Below are positions 2,685 to 8,719 of a DNA stretch of 64,000 nt, one piece after another. The notes under the pieces were generated by a model. The model did not search any database, was not told the DNA's origin, and saw only the letters and a list, made by a program, of their open reading frames with translations. The stretch is from Chloroflexota bacterium (GTDB taxonomy: Bacteria > Chloroflexota > Anaerolineae > UBA1429). The stretch is taken from NCBI GenBank assembly GCA_012729455.1, contig JAAYDC010000001.1:42482-106481 (forward strand), written 5' to 3'. Every line of letters starts with the position of its first letter. The stretch's first letter is position 1. The position numbers were made by a program, and so were the translations under genes.

Positions 2685-3449
2685 ATGACAGAACCTGATG
2701 TAACTCCACAGTCGAACTTGAATGATGTGCCCGAACCAGCTGCCTGGCCCGAGCGTGATGTCAGGCGCCCTGGCTGGTTTATGACGGTACTGCGCTCACC
2801 GCTCAGTGCCACCCTAGTCTTTCTCCTGCTGGTAGTAGTGGCGGCCCTGGCAGGCGCAGGCCTGCCCGAGCACGTTATCGCACCGCACACACCGCGTGAT
2901 CCCGGTGTGCTAAACGTCTCGGTAGTGACAAACACCCCCAATCCGACTGCGACCATCGCCACGGCGGCATCGAGCCCCACCGCCAGCGCTACGCCAGCAC
3001 CCTTACCGACGGACGACTGGCTCACAGGCAGATACCTGCCGCGCCCGGAGGGCAAGTGGATTGAGATCGATCTAACGAATCAGCGCCTGATTGCCCACGA
3101 GGACGCGAACAGCGCTTTTACCATCACGATCGCCTCGGTGATCAGCCTGCCCGAGGCTGCCGTGGGGCGCTTTCAGGTGAGTGCCAAGTATCGCCAGGAC
3201 GACTTTAGCGGTCCGGGCTACCTGCTGCCCAAGGTACCGTGGGTGGTCGAGATCAGCCCCGATGTAAGTATCCTCGGGGCGTATTGGCTGGAGCACTTTG
3301 GCAAGCCGGTGCCCAACGGCTCAATTAACTTGCCGCCGGACGAGGCCGCCAGGCTGTTCGAGTGGGTCGACCCGCCTCTGCCAGAGGGCAGCGAATCGGT
3401 AGCTTCGAGCGAGGCTAATCCCGGCGGCTGGGTATTGATCCATCGCTAG
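2685..3449 (+). CDS. L,D-transpeptidase (YkuD)-fold protein lacking catalytic residues
   Basis: A 254-residue protein with one membrane anchor (about residues 40-62), a Thr/Ala/Pro-rich spacer (about 80-112) and a C-terminal YkuD-type domain. The domain is recognisable from WIEIDLTNQRLIAHED, the GRFQVSAKYRQDDFSGPGY block and the terminal GKPVPNGSINLPPDEAARL. Active L,D-transpeptidases have a His-Gly pair before the YW motif and a Ser-His-Gly-Cys catalytic motif. Here the first reads LGAYW and the second PNGSIN, so both histidines and the nucleophilic cysteine are gone. It is probably a membrane-anchored, non-catalytic peptidoglycan-associated protein facing the cell wall. Codon use matches its neighbours and the frame is intact, so it does not look like a simple decay product. 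The pyr promoter lies over its last codons. Confidence 0.75.
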   Translation: MTEPDVTPQSNLNDVPEPAAWPERDVRRPGWFMTVLRSPLSATLVFLLLVVVAALAGAGLPEHVIAPHTPRDPGVLNVSVVTNTPNPTATIATAASSPTASATPAPLPTDDWLTGRYLPRPEGKWIEIDLTNQRLIAHEDANSAFTITIASVISLPEAAVGRFQVSAKYRQDDFSGPGYLLPKVPWVVEISPDVSILGAYWLEHFGKPVPNGSINLPPDEAARLFEWVDPPLPEGSESVASSEANPGGWVLIHR

Positions 3450-3463
3450 GGCTATGCTATACT
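3435..3463 (+). promoter_or_regulatory. pyr operon promoter
   Basis: TTGATC (3435-3440), 17 bp, TATACT (3458-3463). It is embedded in the 3' end of the preceding gene. Predicted +1 is at about 3470, exactly the ATG of the leader ORF. Confidence 0.65.
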
Positions 3464-3469
3464 AGCTGC

Positions 3470-3559
3470 ATGCCAATCAAGCATAAGCTTATGCCTCGAC
3501 TTCAAGCCCCTCGGCGATCCGCCGATAAGAGGGGCTTTTTTATGCCTGCTTGCCGGTAG
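3470..3559 (+). CDS. candidate pyr leader peptide, 29 codons
   Basis: A short ORF, ATG at 3470 to TAG at 3557-3559, beginning MPIKHKLMPRL and ending RGFFMPACR. It starts at the predicted transcription start, so it would be leaderless. It reads without interruption through the whole intrinsic terminator (3504-3541), with the U-tract encoding two Phe codons, and stops 7 nt before the pyrC ATG. The arrangement matches the known logic of enterobacterial pyrBI/pyrL attenuation, where a ribosome close behind RNA polymerase prevents the terminator hairpin. Translation and regulation are inferred. The alternative is a chance ORF in an intergenic terminator. Confidence 0.45.
   Translation: MPIKHKLMPRLQAPRRSADKRGFFMPACR
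3504..3541 (+). terminator. intrinsic terminator in the pyr leader (attenuator)
   Basis: AAGCCCCT (3504-3511) pairs with AGGGGCTT (3530-3537), with an inner CGGCG/CGCCG stem (3512-3516 with 3520-3524), followed by a run of six T (3536-3541). It sits between the pyr promoter and pyrC, so unless overridden it would stop operon transcription. A perfect palindrome GCATAAGCTTATGC lies just upstream (3481-3494). No clear PyrR-binding loop was recognised. Confidence 0.7.
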
Positions 3560-3566
3560 GTTGCGC

Positions 3567-4643
3567 ATGAGTTCCAGCATAACACTGCCGGGGCTGATCG
3601 ATTGCCACGTGCATCTGCGCGAGCCGGGTGCCGAGTATAAGGAGGGCATTCTTCGCGGCACGCAGGCGGCGCTGGCTGGCGGATTCACCACTATCCTCGA
3701 AATGCCCAATACTCGCCCTGCCTGTGATTCACCTGAAGCCCTGTACCATAAACAAAGCCTCTACGCAAGCCAGGCTTGTTGCAACTATGCGCTCTTTGTC
3801 GGCTATGATCCGGCACAGCACGAGAAACTCACGGCCATGGCGCCGCATACCGCCGGGTTAAAACTGTACCTTGACCACACTTATAACGGCCAACCGCTCT
3901 CGCCCAGCCTGCTGGATGCCATCATGGAGGCCTGGCCTGGCCCGGGACCGGTGGCGGTGCATGCAGAGAGTGAGACGATCTCGGCGGCGATCGCCGTGGC
4001 GGCGCGTCATGGTCAGCACGTGCACATCTGCCATGTGCCGCATGCCGACGACCTACTAGTGATCGACCGTGCGCGCCAGGCAGGCGCCCATGTGACCTGC
4101 GAAGTTGCACCTCACCACCTGCTGCTCGATTCCAACGATGAAGTGCACCTGGGTGCCTTTGGTCAAATGAAACCGCCGTTGGTGAGCCCCGCAGAGCGCG
4201 CCGCGTTTTGGCAGCGTATCGATCTGGTCGACCTGATCGCCTCCGATCATGCCCCCCATACACGCGCCGAAAAACTGAGTGAGACACCTCCGCCGGGCGT
4301 GCCGGGGCTCGAGACCATCCTGCCGCTCATGCTGCAGGCCGTCGACGAAGGGTTGTTAACCCTCGAACGGCTGGTCGAGCTCCTCTATCATGCGCCAGTA
4401 CGGATCTATAGCCTTCCGCCGGATACCGGCAGCATTCAGGTGGCGATTGAACGTTATCAGGTTCCCGAGCAAGGGTTCATGACGCGCTGCGACTGGTCGC
4501 CCTACAGCAGACGTTGGGTAACCGGGCGTGTCTGCGAGGTTACTCTTAACCAGCAAACTATCTGGCGCGATGGCCAGCTGCTCGTGCAGCCCGGCACTGG
4601 ACGCGATATCCGGCACATTACCACTTCAGAGGAGGCAACATGA
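3567..4643 (+). CDS. pyrC: dihydroorotase
   Basis: Catalyses reversible cyclisation of carbamoyl-aspartate to dihydroorotate, step 3 of UMP synthesis. The 358-residue amidohydrolase shows the metal-binding [10 protein letters not shown] motif (residues 12-21), a candidate bridging lysine in [25 protein letters not shown] and the C-terminal metal Asp in [11 protein letters not shown], ending in [13 protein letters not shown]. The start is the ATG at 3567, with GGTAGG six bases upstream; an in-frame TTG two codons earlier is less likely. It overlaps pyrB by 4 nt (ATGA), so the two are translationally coupled. It is the first gene of the pyrC-B-FE-D-K operon, behind the candidate attenuator. Confidence 0.95.
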
Positions 4644-5620
4644 CACCCGATACGAACGTACGTAAGACCGTGGGCCTGGCAGCAGACCGCCAGCAAAGCT
4701 TTTATGGGCGCGATATCGTTTCGGTTCGCCAGTTCACCCGCGATGATCTCAACTATATCTTTACCGTCTCGGACGAAATGCGCAGTCTGGTGCACCGCGT
4801 GGGCGCTACGGACCTTCTGAAAGGCCACATCCTTGCTAACCTGTTTTACGAGCCCTCAACGCGTACTTTTGCCTCGTTTGCGGCAGCCATGCAGCGTCTG
4901 GGCGGCTCGACCATCCCAATCCACGGCGTGCAGTATTCCTCCGTCAGCAAGGGTGAGTCGCTGCCCGATACCGTCCGTTCGCTGGCGTGCTATGCCGATG
5001 TCATCGTGCTGCGTCACCCCGAGGTGGGGGCATCCGAAGTCGCAGCGCGCTACAGCAGCAAGCCGGTCATCAGCGCCGGCGACGGTGTTGGCGAGCATCC
5101 CACCCAAGGCTTGCTCGATCTCTACACCATCTATGCCGAGTTGGGCACCGTCGATGAGCTGAACGTGACGATGGTAGGCGATCTGCGCAACGGCCGCACG
5201 GTGCACTCGCTGGCCAGGTTACTGAGCATGTATCGTGTCAACCTTACGCTGGTATCGCCCGCTATCCTGCGTCTGCCTGCGCAGCTAAAACAGGAACTGG
5301 TGGATGCCGGCCTGAGTGTGCGCGAGACGGACCGCGTCGAGAATGTGATCAGTGAATCCGACGTGGTGTATGTTACGCGCGTGCAGCGCGAGCGCTTTGA
5401 AGATATGCACGAATACGAGGCTGTGCGCGACAGCTATGAGATTACCCCCGAGTTGATGGCCAATGCCAAAGAAAAGATGGCCCTCATGCATCCTCTGCCG
5501 CGTGTGAATGAGATTCATTACGATGTCGACGATGATCCGCGCGCTGCCTATTTCCGTCAGATGGAAAACGGCATGTACATCCGCATGGCGCTGCTGGCTG
5601 CCGTGCTGGGAAAGGCTTAA
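4640..5620 (+). CDS. pyrB: aspartate carbamoyltransferase catalytic subunit
   Basis: Condenses carbamoyl phosphate with aspartate, the committed step of pyrimidine synthesis. At 326 residues it is typical for the catalytic chain. Visible motifs are the carbamoyl-phosphate loop [20 protein letters not shown], the [12 protein letters not shown] block, [12 protein letters not shown] and the C-terminal [10 protein letters not shown]. An N-terminal extension of about 20 residues precedes the first conserved helix. GAGGAGG provides the ribosome binding site inside the end of pyrC. No regulatory chain gene (pyrI) is adjacent, so it may be unregulated by nucleotides or controlled at the leader. Confidence 0.96.
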
Positions 5621-5623
5621 GCG

Positions 5624-7063
5624 ATGGGCTTTTGGGAGAAACTGCGCGCCAGTATCGCAAAACGCAACAGCCTGTTGTGTGTGGGGCTGGATCCGGTGCC
5701 CGAGAAGATCCCCAGCCGTTATGGCAGCGTTGCCGAATTCGGGCACGCCATCATCGCGGCAACGGCTGAGGTTGCCTGCTGCTATAAACCCAACCTGGCC
5801 TTTTACGAGGCGCTCGGCACGGATGGCATGGCGATCCTGGCGGATACGCTGCAGGCCGTGCCGTCCGATATCCCTGTAATTCTTGATGGTAAACGCAACG
5901 ACATCGCCAACACGGCGGATGCCTATGCGCGCTCAGCCTACGACGTGCTGGGTGGCGATGCCCTGACGGTCAACCCCTACCTGGGGGCAGATGGCGTGCG
6001 CCCCTTTATGCAGCGTGCCGGCAAGGGGGTCTTTATCCTATGCAAGACCTCGAACCCCTCCGCGGGCGAGCTGCAGGATTGGTCCTCGCAGGGAGTGCCT
6101 CTGTACGCGCATGTGGCTGAACTGGCTAACCAGTGGGCAGGCGACGGTGAGGTTGGCCTGGTCATAGGGGCTACCTACCCCGAGGCGATCGCTGAAATTC
6201 GTGCCCAGTACCCCAATAGCTGGTTCCTGATCCCAGGGGTGGGAACCCAGGGCGGCGAGGTAGCGCCTGTGCTGCGCGCCGGCTTGCGCGACGATGGCTT
6301 TGGCGTGCTGATCAACGCCTCGCGCGCGGTATTGTATGCTGATGATCCAGCCCGTGCAGCGCGTGAGCTGCGCGATACCATTAACCGTGAGAGTGTATCG
6401 TCGGTTGAACAATCGTCCGTTGACGATCAGCGCGTGCGCATCGCTCAGCAGAGCATTGATCGCCTGGCACGCGGCTTGTTCGAAAGCCACTGTGTTCAGT
6501 TTGGTGATTTTATGCTGCACTCGGGCGCACATTCGCCCATCTATATCGACCTGCGGTTGCTGGTATCGACACCGGCGCTCCTGCAGGAGGCCGCCGGCCA
6601 CTATGCCCGCCTGCTCAAGGGGCTGCACTATGACCGCCTTGCGGCGATTCCCTACGCCGCACTCCCGATCGGCACCGCTGTGGCACTCCAAACCGGCGAT
6701 CCGCTGATCTATCCGAGGCGCGATGCCAAGGGATATGGCACGCAGCGCCAGATCGAGGGCACATTCAAAGCCGGCGAGCGCGTGGTGTTGCTCGATGACC
6801 TGATCTCGAGCGGCGAGAGCAAGATCGAGGCCATTCAGCCGCTGGTAGCTGCCGGTTTAGTGGTGGAGGATATCGTAGTGCTGATTGACCGCCAGCAAGG
6901 CGGAGCCGAAGAGTTGGCCCAGAAAGGCCTGCGCCTGCACACCGCTGTCACCCTCAGCGAGCTACTCGCGTCGCTTGAACGCCAGCAACTGGTCAGTGGA
7001 GAGGAGGTTGCCCGCGTGCATCAATTCCTGGCCAGCTACCGCCGCGCGGGCGCCCCGCAATGA
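5624..7063 (+). CDS. pyrFE: bifunctional orotidine-5'-phosphate decarboxylase / orotate phosphoribosyltransferase
   Basis: Catalyses the last two steps, orotate + PRPP to OMP and OMP to UMP, in one 479-residue chain. The N-terminal half is a type-2 OMP decarboxylase: LCVGLDPVPEKIP (18-30), catalytic ILDGKRNDIANTADAY with Lys90, TVNPYLGADGVRPF, and the phosphate loop IPGVGTQGGE. After a linker at about 255-280 the C-terminal half is an orotate phosphoribosyltransferase: FGDFMLHSGAHSPIYIDLR, AIPYAALPIGTAVAL, and the PRPP loop VVLLDDLISSGESK. The domain order is decarboxylase first, opposite to eukaryotic UMP synthase. It starts 3 nt after pyrB and overlaps pyrD by 4 nt. Both active sites look complete. 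Confidence 0.95.
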   Translation: MGFWEKLRASIAKRNSLLCVGLDPVPEKIPSRYGSVAEFGHAIIAATAEVACCYKPNLAFYEALGTDGMAILADTLQAVPSDIPVILDGKRNDIANTADAYARSAYDVLGGDALTVNPYLGADGVRPFMQRAGKGVFILCKTSNPSAGELQDWSSQGVPLYAHVAELANQWAGDGEVGLVIGATYPEAIAEIRAQYPNSWFLIPGVGTQGGEVAPVLRAGLRDDGFGVLINASRAVLYADDPARAARELRDTINRESVSSVEQSSVDDQRVRIAQQSIDRLARGLFESHCVQFGDFMLHSGAHSPIYIDLRLLVSTPALLQEAAGHYARLLKGLHYDRLAAIPYAALPIGTAVALQTGDPLIYPRRDAKGYGTQRQIEGTFKAGERVVLLDDLISSGESKIEAIQPLVAAGLVVEDIVVLIDRQQGGAEELAQKGLRLHTAVTLSELLASLERQQLVSGEEVARVHQFLASYRRAGAPQ

Positions 7064-7992
7064 GCCCTTCGCTGGCAGTTGATCTGGCCGGCTTGCGGTT
7101 GGCTAACCCACTGGTGCTCGCCTCTGGCATCTGGGGCTGTGCAGCTGAGACGCTCGTGCGCGCCGCGCGAGCGGGCGCCGGAGCTGTAACCAGCAAGTCC
7201 TGCAGTGTGGCGCCGCGCACAGGTCATCCCAACCCGACGGTGCTGCCCTGGGCGGGCGGATTGATCAACGCCGTCGGACTGGCCAATCCCGGGGCAGCCG
7301 AGGAGCGCCTGATCCTGCAGGAAGCGCACAAGAGCCTGATACCACTCGGTGTATCGCTGATCGCCAGTATTTTCGGCTCGACGCCTGATGATTATGCAGA
7401 GGCGGCCGAGTTGGTGGCTGGCGCACAGCCCGAGATCCTGGAGGTCAACATTTCGTGCCCCAACGTGGCCAGCGAATTTGGCCTGCCCTTTGCCCTTGAG
7501 CCTGATGCTGCTGCCGCTGTTACCCGCGCTGTACGCGCTGCCTATGCCGGGCGTGTCTTTATCAAGCTCTCGCCTAACGCGGTCAACATCGTCGAGGTGG
7601 CGGCAGCCGCAGCAGAAGCTGGCGCAGATGGCTTTACCGCCGTCAACACCCTCGGACCGGGCATGCTGATCGATATTACAGCGCGCCGGCCGATCCTTTC
7701 CAACCGCGTGGGCGGTGTATCGGGTGCGGCATTACGGCCCATCGCGCTGCGTTGTATCCATGATGTGACGCGCGCCATCGGCCTGCCGGTGATCGGCACA
7801 GGCGGGGTGGATAGCGGTGAGGCTGCCATACAGATGATTATGGCGGGTGCCAGTGCGGTGGGGGTTGGCTCTGCCCTGTTGGGTGAAGGCGACGCCGTGT
7901 TTAGCCGCCTGCAGCGCGAGATGCTCACCATCATGCAGCACGAGGGGATTGCCAGCCTTGAAGAAATCCGGGGGTGCGCACATGCTGGATAA
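7060..7992 (+). CDS. pyrD: dihydroorotate dehydrogenase B, catalytic subunit
   Basis: Oxidises dihydroorotate to orotate using FMN. The 310-residue protein matches class 1B: AVGLANPGAAEERL, EVNISCPNVASEFG with the catalytic Cys, FIKLSPN, AVNTLGPGMLID, and the FMN phosphate loops VIGTGGVDSGEAAI and GASAVGVGSALL. The adjacent pyrK supports an NAD-linked class 1B heterotetramer. The start ATG overlaps the pyrFE stop (ATGA), and the 3' end overlaps pyrK by 11 nt, indicating tight coupling. Confidence 0.95.
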   Translation: MSPSLAVDLAGLRLANPLVLASGIWGCAAETLVRAARAGAGAVTSKSCSVAPRTGHPNPTVLPWAGGLINAVGLANPGAAEERLILQEAHKSLIPLGVSLIASIFGSTPDDYAEAAELVAGAQPEILEVNISCPNVASEFGLPFALEPDAAAAVTRAVRAAYAGRVFIKLSPNAVNIVEVAAAAAEAGADGFTAVNTLGPGMLIDITARRPILSNRVGGVSGAALRPIALRCIHDVTRAIGLPVIGTGGVDSGEAAIQMIMAGASAVGVGSALLGEGDAVFSRLQREMLTIMQHEGIASLEEIRGCAHAG

Positions 7993-8719
7993 CATCTACC
8001 AGGTGATGCGCGTCACCGAGCGCATACCGGAGGGAAAGTGCGGTGCCACCCTGGTTCTGGACGGTGAGTTGCCGTGCCAGGCCGGACAATTCGTGATGGT
8101 ATGGCTGCCGGGCGTCGAGGAACGTCCCTTTACGTTGGTCAACGACACACCGGTCACCCTGACCGTCGCGGCAATCGGGCCCCTGACGCGCGCACTGGCT
8201 GGGCTCGAGGTGGGCGCGCGGGTGTGGCTGCGCGGTCCTTACGGCCACGGGTTTCCTCCTCCCGGCCGACGGCTGCTGGTGCTGGGGGGCGGCAGCGGAA
8301 TCGCCTCGTTGGCGCTGCTGGCACGCCGTGCGCTGGCTGAGGGCGCCGAGGTGCGCACCTATATCGGGGCGCGCACGACCGATCTGTTGATGCTGCCTTG
8401 GTATCCGCATTGGAGCACACTGACTCTGACGACCGACGACGGCAGCCAAGGGATTCACGGCAATGTGCTGCAGGCTGCTGCGGAGCAGTTCGCGTGGGCG
8501 GATGGCATCTACGCCTGCGGCCCCGAGCCGATGCTGGCAGCCCTGGCGCGCAGTCGCCGATCAGATTGGCCTCCATGCTGGATCAACCTCGAGCGCGTGA
8601 TGCGTTGCGGCATCGGTGTGTGTGGCAGCTGCCACTGCGGTAGCCACCTGGTATGTGCCGATGGGCCCGTCTTTAACCTCGAACAGGTGACTGCGGAGCT
8701 ACTCGCGCCACCACATTGA
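7982..8719 (+). CDS. pyrK: dihydroorotate dehydrogenase B, electron-transfer subunit
   Basis: FAD and [2Fe-2S] subunit passing electrons from PyrD to NAD+. At 245 residues it shows the FAD-binding RPFTLVNDTPVTLT region, the NAD-binding GGGSGIASLALL, the YACGPEPML motif, and a C-terminal iron-sulfur cluster MRCGIGVCGSCHCGSHLVC in which four cysteines follow the PyrK spacing. The start ATG at 7982 lies inside the end of pyrD; an in-frame upstream extension lacks family similarity. It is the last gene of the pyr operon. No terminator was recognised before the next gene. Confidence 0.94.
   Translation: MLDNIYQVMRVTERIPEGKCGATLVLDGELPCQAGQFVMVWLPGVEERPFTLVNDTPVTLTVAAIGPLTRALAGLEVGARVWLRGPYGHGFPPPGRRLLVLGGGSGIASLALLARRALAEGAEVRTYIGARTTDLLMLPWYPHWSTLTLTTDDGSQGIHGNVLQAAAEQFAWADGIYACGPEPMLAALARSRRSDWPPCWINLERVMRCGIGVCGSCHCGSHLVCADGPVFNLEQVTAELLAPPH

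Follow-up and report, generated by a model that had tools for sequence, protein, structure and literature searches.

A leader ORF running through a predicted terminator precedes pyrC in many families of Anaerolineae and may form a ribosome-controlled attenuator

Introduction

To our knowledge, leader-peptide control of pyrimidine synthesis is known only from enterobacteria and their kin. PyrR-dependent attenuators also place a terminator in the leader of the pyr operon. PyrR motifs controlling pyrimidine genes in other bacteria are described in PMC3766115, which lists RF00515. In pyrBI the terminator lies inside the leader gene, an arrangement that PMC4824070 presents alongside the repression of terminators by ribosomes, and PMC5021804 employs the terminator of pyrL likewise. 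In the model given in PMC10135430, low UTP makes the polymerase pause within pyrL, and the ribosome coupled to it keeps the hairpin from forming. Leaders whose RNA starts with the peptide are reported for other pathways: in Sinorhizobium meliloti trpL, the RNA begins at or near the leader-peptide AUG (PMC7298713), and mycobacterial polycysteine ORFs are leaderless leader peptides (cited in PMC13236596).

Here we analyse the leader of a pyrimidine operon from a bacterium of the phylum Chloroflexota, class Anaerolineae. The window, the whole stretch of DNA considered, spans 64,000 nucleotides of a 2.6 Mb genome assembled in 30 contigs. On balance, we favour a ribosome-controlled transcription attenuator in front of the pyrC-first operon, working like the E. 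coli pyrBI leader.

Results

Anatomy of the leader

The predicted promoter ahead of pyrC has the −35 element TTGATC (3435–3440), a 17-nt spacer, the −10 element TATACT (3458–3463) and a TG at 3455–3456, and it was the single site found in a scan of 601 bases in which 0.3 were expected. Six nucleotides past the −10 element, at the predicted +1, lies the ATG (3470–3472) of a short ORF that contains a complete predicted terminator (Table 1). These elements, from the promoter to the stop just ahead of pyrC, had been proposed in a preliminary description of the DNA, and all of them held on re-reading the sequence. The hairpin arms AAGCCCCTC...GAGGGGCTT (3504–3537) fold with −20.6 kcal/mol (z −2.87), a value equalled in 4 of 200 shuffles; a simple terminator scan with a loop limit of 8 nt missed this hairpin (0 found, 0.5 expected). 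Any transcript from the predicted promoter must cross the hairpin and its T-run before pyrC. The preceding gene, weakly YkuD-like (below cut-off), ends at 3449, ahead of the −10 element, and the genes behind the leader follow the order pyrC-pyrB-pyrF/E-pyrD-pyrK.

Table 1. Features of the leader and operon, in window coordinates. The start codon of the pyrK-like gene was picked by eye.
Feature	Position	Strand	Details
Predicted sigma-70-type promoter (extended TG)	3435..3463	+	9/12 consensus positions
Leader ORF MPIKHKLMPRLQAPRRSADKRGFFMPACR	3470..3559	+	29 sense codons + TAG; stop 7 nt before pyrC ATG (3567)
14-nt perfect palindrome GCATAAGCTTATGC	3481..3494	+	Weak 5-bp RNA hairpin; candidate pause site
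Predicted intrinsic terminator, within leader ORF	3504..3541	+	Stem-loop 3504–3537 with inner hairpin, T-run 3536–3541
pyrC, dihydroorotase, first operon gene	3567..4643	+	TIGR00857, E 5.8e-73, 246 bits; below curated cut-off 279
pyrB, aspartate carbamoyltransferase	4640..5620	+	TIGR00670, above cut-off
pyrF-pyrE fusion, single gene	5624..7063	+	TIGR02127 and TIGR00336, above cut-off
pyrD, dihydroorotate dehydrogenase	7060..7992	+	NF005574, above cut-off
pyrK-like electron transfer subunit of dihydroorotate dehydrogenase	7982..8719	+	NF000796, E 1.5e-60, 204.6 bits vs cut-off 224; PF10418

The layout resembles E. coli pyrBI with its leader peptide PyrL (b4246; PF08052) in that a leader ORF runs through an intrinsic terminator before a pyrimidine operon. 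In both E. coli MG1655 and the window, the distance from the start of the T-run to the first gene, pyrB in E. coli and pyrC here, is 31 nt, and the leader stop lies 3 nt from that gene in E. coli and 7 nt in the window. In other respects the two differ: pyrL of E. coli possesses a 5′ UTR with a GGGAGG site as well as a U-rich tract, whereas the window has a predicted near-leaderless start and no U run longer than 2. The stem arms AGCCCCTC/GAGGGGCT are common to both, a match that we take as coincidence. The PF08052 profile recognizes E. coli PyrL at 3.1e-34 and gives no match to the window peptide, so the window leader appears to resemble pyrBI in its working without being filed in the PyrL family. 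A Pfam profile scan of the window peptide returned no match, and scans of the leader peptides of its relatives likewise returned nothing. The predicted start recalls S. meliloti trpL and the polycysteine ORFs, whose RNA starts with or near the leader AUG; those leaders are tied to tryptophan or cysteine, whereas this one precedes pyrimidine genes and has no run of one regulatory codon.

When the ATG and terminator were held fixed and the 31 nt between them shuffled, 47% of 20,000 shuffles reached the same stop, because the terminator and the stretch downstream are already open in the leader frame. The window alone thus proves little, and its relatives decide the case.

Terminators upstream of pyrC across the class

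Of 60 relatives, 58 gave a pyrC match at E <= 1e-3, a count that takes in paralogues, and a search of 296 class genomes gave a match in 139 (E <= 1e-75). Weak or partial matches from the first search that lacked a full gene were not carried forward. Pooling both searches gave 139 usable upstream regions, from which four loci with a contig end in or near the gene start (L012, L014, L178 and L179) had been left out. A hairpin followed by a T-run lies within 200 nt upstream of pyrC in 90 of the 139 regions, representing 33 of 42 families, and all 90 pass the detector cut of −9 kcal/mol; the same detector found no terminator in the other 49. Upstream of carA it found one in 4 of 26 regions (26 of 27 carA matches were examined). 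These carA regions had no common feature that we could see, and the layout found at pyrC is not general there. Two of them (L251 and L261) have terminator-like hairpins shortly upstream of carA that could represent more attenuators; most of the 26 have none.

The end of the T-run is a median of 28 nt from pyrC (at most 35 nt in 52 of 90), a gap too small to hold another promoter. In 76 of the 90, a promoter judged by its −10 and −35 elements only lies upstream of the terminator.

A second design was also seen, in which a strong terminator-like hairpin sits almost at the predicted transcription start, directly upstream of pyrC. It was detected by script in L038, L040 and L080 (family f15) and L144 (f17), and by eye in L193–L195, L199, L205, L212, L224 and L234 (f28). 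With the hairpin at the promoter and no space for an ORF, this design cannot work by leader-ORF attenuation.

The leader ORF recurs in many families

An ORF was taken to begin with the first ATG found no farther than 30 nt past the −10 element, and such ORFs were sought in the 72 of 76 promoter-bearing leaders that are at least 25 nt long. The ORF reaches the terminator in 40 of the 72, compared with 12.6 ± 3.1 expected from dinucleotide shuffles of the leader. Among these leaders, 23 have an ORF that runs through the terminator and 17 one that ends at or in it; 12 have an ORF stopping before it and 20 lack such an ATG. Averaged by family, the reaching fraction is 0.65 against 0.18 in shuffles (27 families, p = 2e-4), with at least one reaching leader in 20 families and none in 7. 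Crossing itself was seen in 23/52 cases in the leader frame and in 28/104 when the remaining two frames were read from that position. Leader-frame stops concentrate no more than 15 nt from the pyrC start (17/52 vs 8/104 in the remaining frames; p = 1e-4), and the stop overlaps the pyrC start as ATGA or GTGA in 9 of the 23 crossing ORFs, against 1 of 28 in other frames. The arrangement of a leader ORF through a predicted terminator is thus found repeatedly, in many of the families that make up the class.

The first codon is placed close to the promoter: ATG is commonest 8 and 9 nt past the −10 element (15 of 76 loci), and GTG occurs at 9 nt in 14 of 76. These peaks suggest that leader transcripts carry little or no 5′ UTR. 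Leaderless genes are reported for Chloroflexi in PMC3160421, in 4 of 12 genomes and for about 5% of genes.

Outside the class, 18 of 151 sampled phylum genomes gave a match, two of them from outside the class; five added loci brought these to seven. By eye, two of the seven (L270 and L271) carry an ORF that crosses a terminator and finishes in ATGA, and in the other five another gene's ORF runs up to pyrC and no leader was seen.

Within its own family, the window is less typical. Its order comprises 15 genomes, the nearest PyrC being 58% identical, and 12 of the 15, window included, have upstream sequence to compare. Only in the window (L001) and L009 does an ORF cross a terminator, and the weak terminator of L009 was missed by the detector. 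The ORF of L013 ends inside the terminator and that of L002 before it; L003 and L005 retain the near-leaderless ATG and lack a terminator; in L006 and L007 pyrC stands directly behind the preceding gene, whose end is straddled by the detector match of L007; L011 and L127 have no terminator; and a hairpin, though no ORF of the leader type, is present in L170 and, judged by eye only, in L008. Eight of the 12 thus lack the terminator, the ORF or both. In L003 and L005, the RNA 5′ end might base-pair with the sequence immediately ahead of the pyrC start, perhaps as a translational switch. Conservation of the reading frame in relatives, whose failure the preliminary description had named as a refutation, came out differently at the two levels: the frame is poorly kept in the window's own family (2 of 12), which counts against the proposal among close relatives, and it recurs across the class.

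This poor conservation, the ease with which the window ORF stays open by chance and the 49 pyrC regions that lack a terminator would fit a hairpin that does no more than terminate transcription of the YkuD-like gene ahead of it and an ORF that crosses this hairpin by accident. We consider this improbable, although it is the alternative that we take most seriously: the window's T-run ends 25 nt from pyrC, too close for another promoter, the predicted promoter lies upstream of the hairpin, and the layout recurs across families beyond what shuffles give. The hairpin may also have a double use, serving both the preceding gene and the pyr leader.

Pyrimidine-rich sequence before the terminator

Just before the terminator, the U content of leaders is 0.305 versus 0.203 (higher in 18 of 24 families, p = 0.0035), and C+U is 0.575 versus 0.469 (p = 2e-4); the U test covers leaders of at least 50 nt, 62 of the 76, and the window leader is not among them. 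The U-rich stretch matches the site at which the pyrBI model needs a slow polymerase. In the window, the 25 nt before the terminator have a U content of 0.28, near the class mean, with no U run longer than 2.

The weak hairpin of the palindrome may be one candidate sensor in the window. Its proposed role as a pause site gained little support: as RNA it forms a 5-bp hairpin of −3.8 kcal/mol (z −1.47), and the exact 14-mer is unique in the genome. We also set aside the palindrome as a regulon operator; besides that single exact site, the genome has six that differ by 2 mismatches, compared with 1 for a control pattern. Hairpins stronger than this one fold at a similar place in three own-family members (L002, L009 and L170).

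In family f43 (L155, L163, L166 and L171), a small hairpin and then a U-rich run precede the terminator upstream of pyrC, making a good candidate for a pause site. The leader peptides of these four loci have in common an Arg-rich and then a Phe-rich stretch.

The frequent contact between leader stop and pyrC start, with its ATGA or GTGA overlaps, would also suit a leader that serves mainly translation, in which ribosomes load at the near-leaderless start and reinitiate at pyrC with no attenuation involved. Leader genes are indeed proposed as a reinitiation antenna in PMC4833913, which holds short-distance attenuation unlikely. We give this account a small probability, as it leaves unexplained the recurring terminators, the U-rich stretch before them and the leaders of family f28, which stop at the terminator, far from pyrC.

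Signs of translation in family f28

In family f28, a pyrC match was found in 64 of 80 genomes. In a picked set of 43 loci, from which 22 f28 loci without such a leader had been excluded by eye beforehand, promoter, ATG and terminator are all present in 28, one of which (L149) belongs to f52. In all 28, the ORF ends no more than 6 nt short of the terminator or extends farther. Of the remaining 15, 11 lack a terminator, 3 a promoter (by script) and 1 an ATG. Many of these leader peptides group into homologous sets, and several f28 stops fall on the first bases of the terminator.

Comparing codons within groups chosen because they could be aligned, we found that 149 of 300 differences are synonymous in frame, against 58 of 280 and 61 of 266 in the other frames (all pairs, five groups). 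Six independent f28 pairs gave the same direction, with 20/43 in frame and 14/83 otherwise (p = 6e-4), and the f16 and f22 groups taken alone show little in-frame excess. Such an excess points to selection on codons, which makes translation of the f28 leaders very probable. Part of their amino-acid sequence is also conserved, something that the pyrBI model does not need.

That the amino acids are in part kept, that synonymous changes prevail and that several stops fall on the terminator's first bases would fit a nascent peptide that is itself the sensor and stalls the ribosome at the terminator depending on the presence or absence of a ligand. We hold this to be quite unlikely, because the peptides vary between families, the window's is unlike the others, and low-complexity U-rich codons can by themselves keep residues such as Phe and Leu.

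No PyrR and no antiterminator detected

A search of 60 genomes turned up no PyrR gene; of 14 control genomes, 6 were positive. An Rfam search of the window gave no match, PyrR RNA motif included. Leaders paired with the terminator arm no better than shuffled sequences did (p <= 0.05 in 1 of 72). Features of amino-acid-type attenuators were also lacking: leader peptides show no single-codon run by eye, and no alternative pairing was found. Like PyrR-dependent attenuators, the locus has a terminator in its pyr leader; it differs from them in that none of PyrR gene, PyrR RNA motif and antiterminator was found. Control by PyrR or an Rfam element was therefore set aside, and control of the terminator by another PyrR-like RNA-binding protein or a riboswitch, for which the use of PyrR motifs in other bacteria (RF00515, PMC3766115) speaks, is very unlikely in view of the same searches. 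With no antiterminator, direct occlusion by the ribosome is the simplest switch.

Discussion

The attenuator that we favour would operate as follows. RNA would start at or within a few nucleotides of the leader AUG, and this AUG would be translated by leaderless initiation. With pyrimidine nucleotides plentiful, RNA polymerase would outrun the ribosome, the terminator would fold and transcription would stop. When UTP (or CTP) is scarce, the polymerase would slow in the leader, letting the ribosome catch up and cover the 5′ arm of the hairpin; with that arm covered, the polymerase would continue into pyrCBFEDK. The ribosome would finish at the pyrC start and may help translation of pyrC to begin. 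Neither a regulator protein nor an antiterminator would be required.

The preliminary description had proposed just such a leaderless, pyrBI-like attenuator. It is supported in part: its class-level outline stands, made up of promoter, near-leaderless ATG, ORF to or through the terminator, stop at pyrC, a U-richer stretch and the absence of PyrR and antiterminator. The pause at the palindrome gains little support, the frame gives a mixed picture in the window's own family, and control by UTP remains a prediction.

In a literature search that covered few subscription journals, we came across no report of pyrimidine genes controlled by a leader peptide in Chloroflexota. The leader-gene survey in PMC4833913 places Chloroflexi among the groups with too few genomes to judge.

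A bolder version, which we offer as speculation and think unlikely, is that Chloroflexota, independently of enterobacteria, evolved a PyrR-free, class-wide, near-leaderless attenuator for the whole operon and, in some families, a conserved nascent arrest peptide that parks the ribosome on the terminator at pyrimidine shortage.

If such a PyrR-free attenuator does recur in many families, transcription–translation coupling would sense the supply of nucleotides in a deep phylum of mostly uncultured organisms, and would do so via near-leaderless initiation. The leaders of the class are very different from one another, and they would form a natural set for testing what the mechanism needs.
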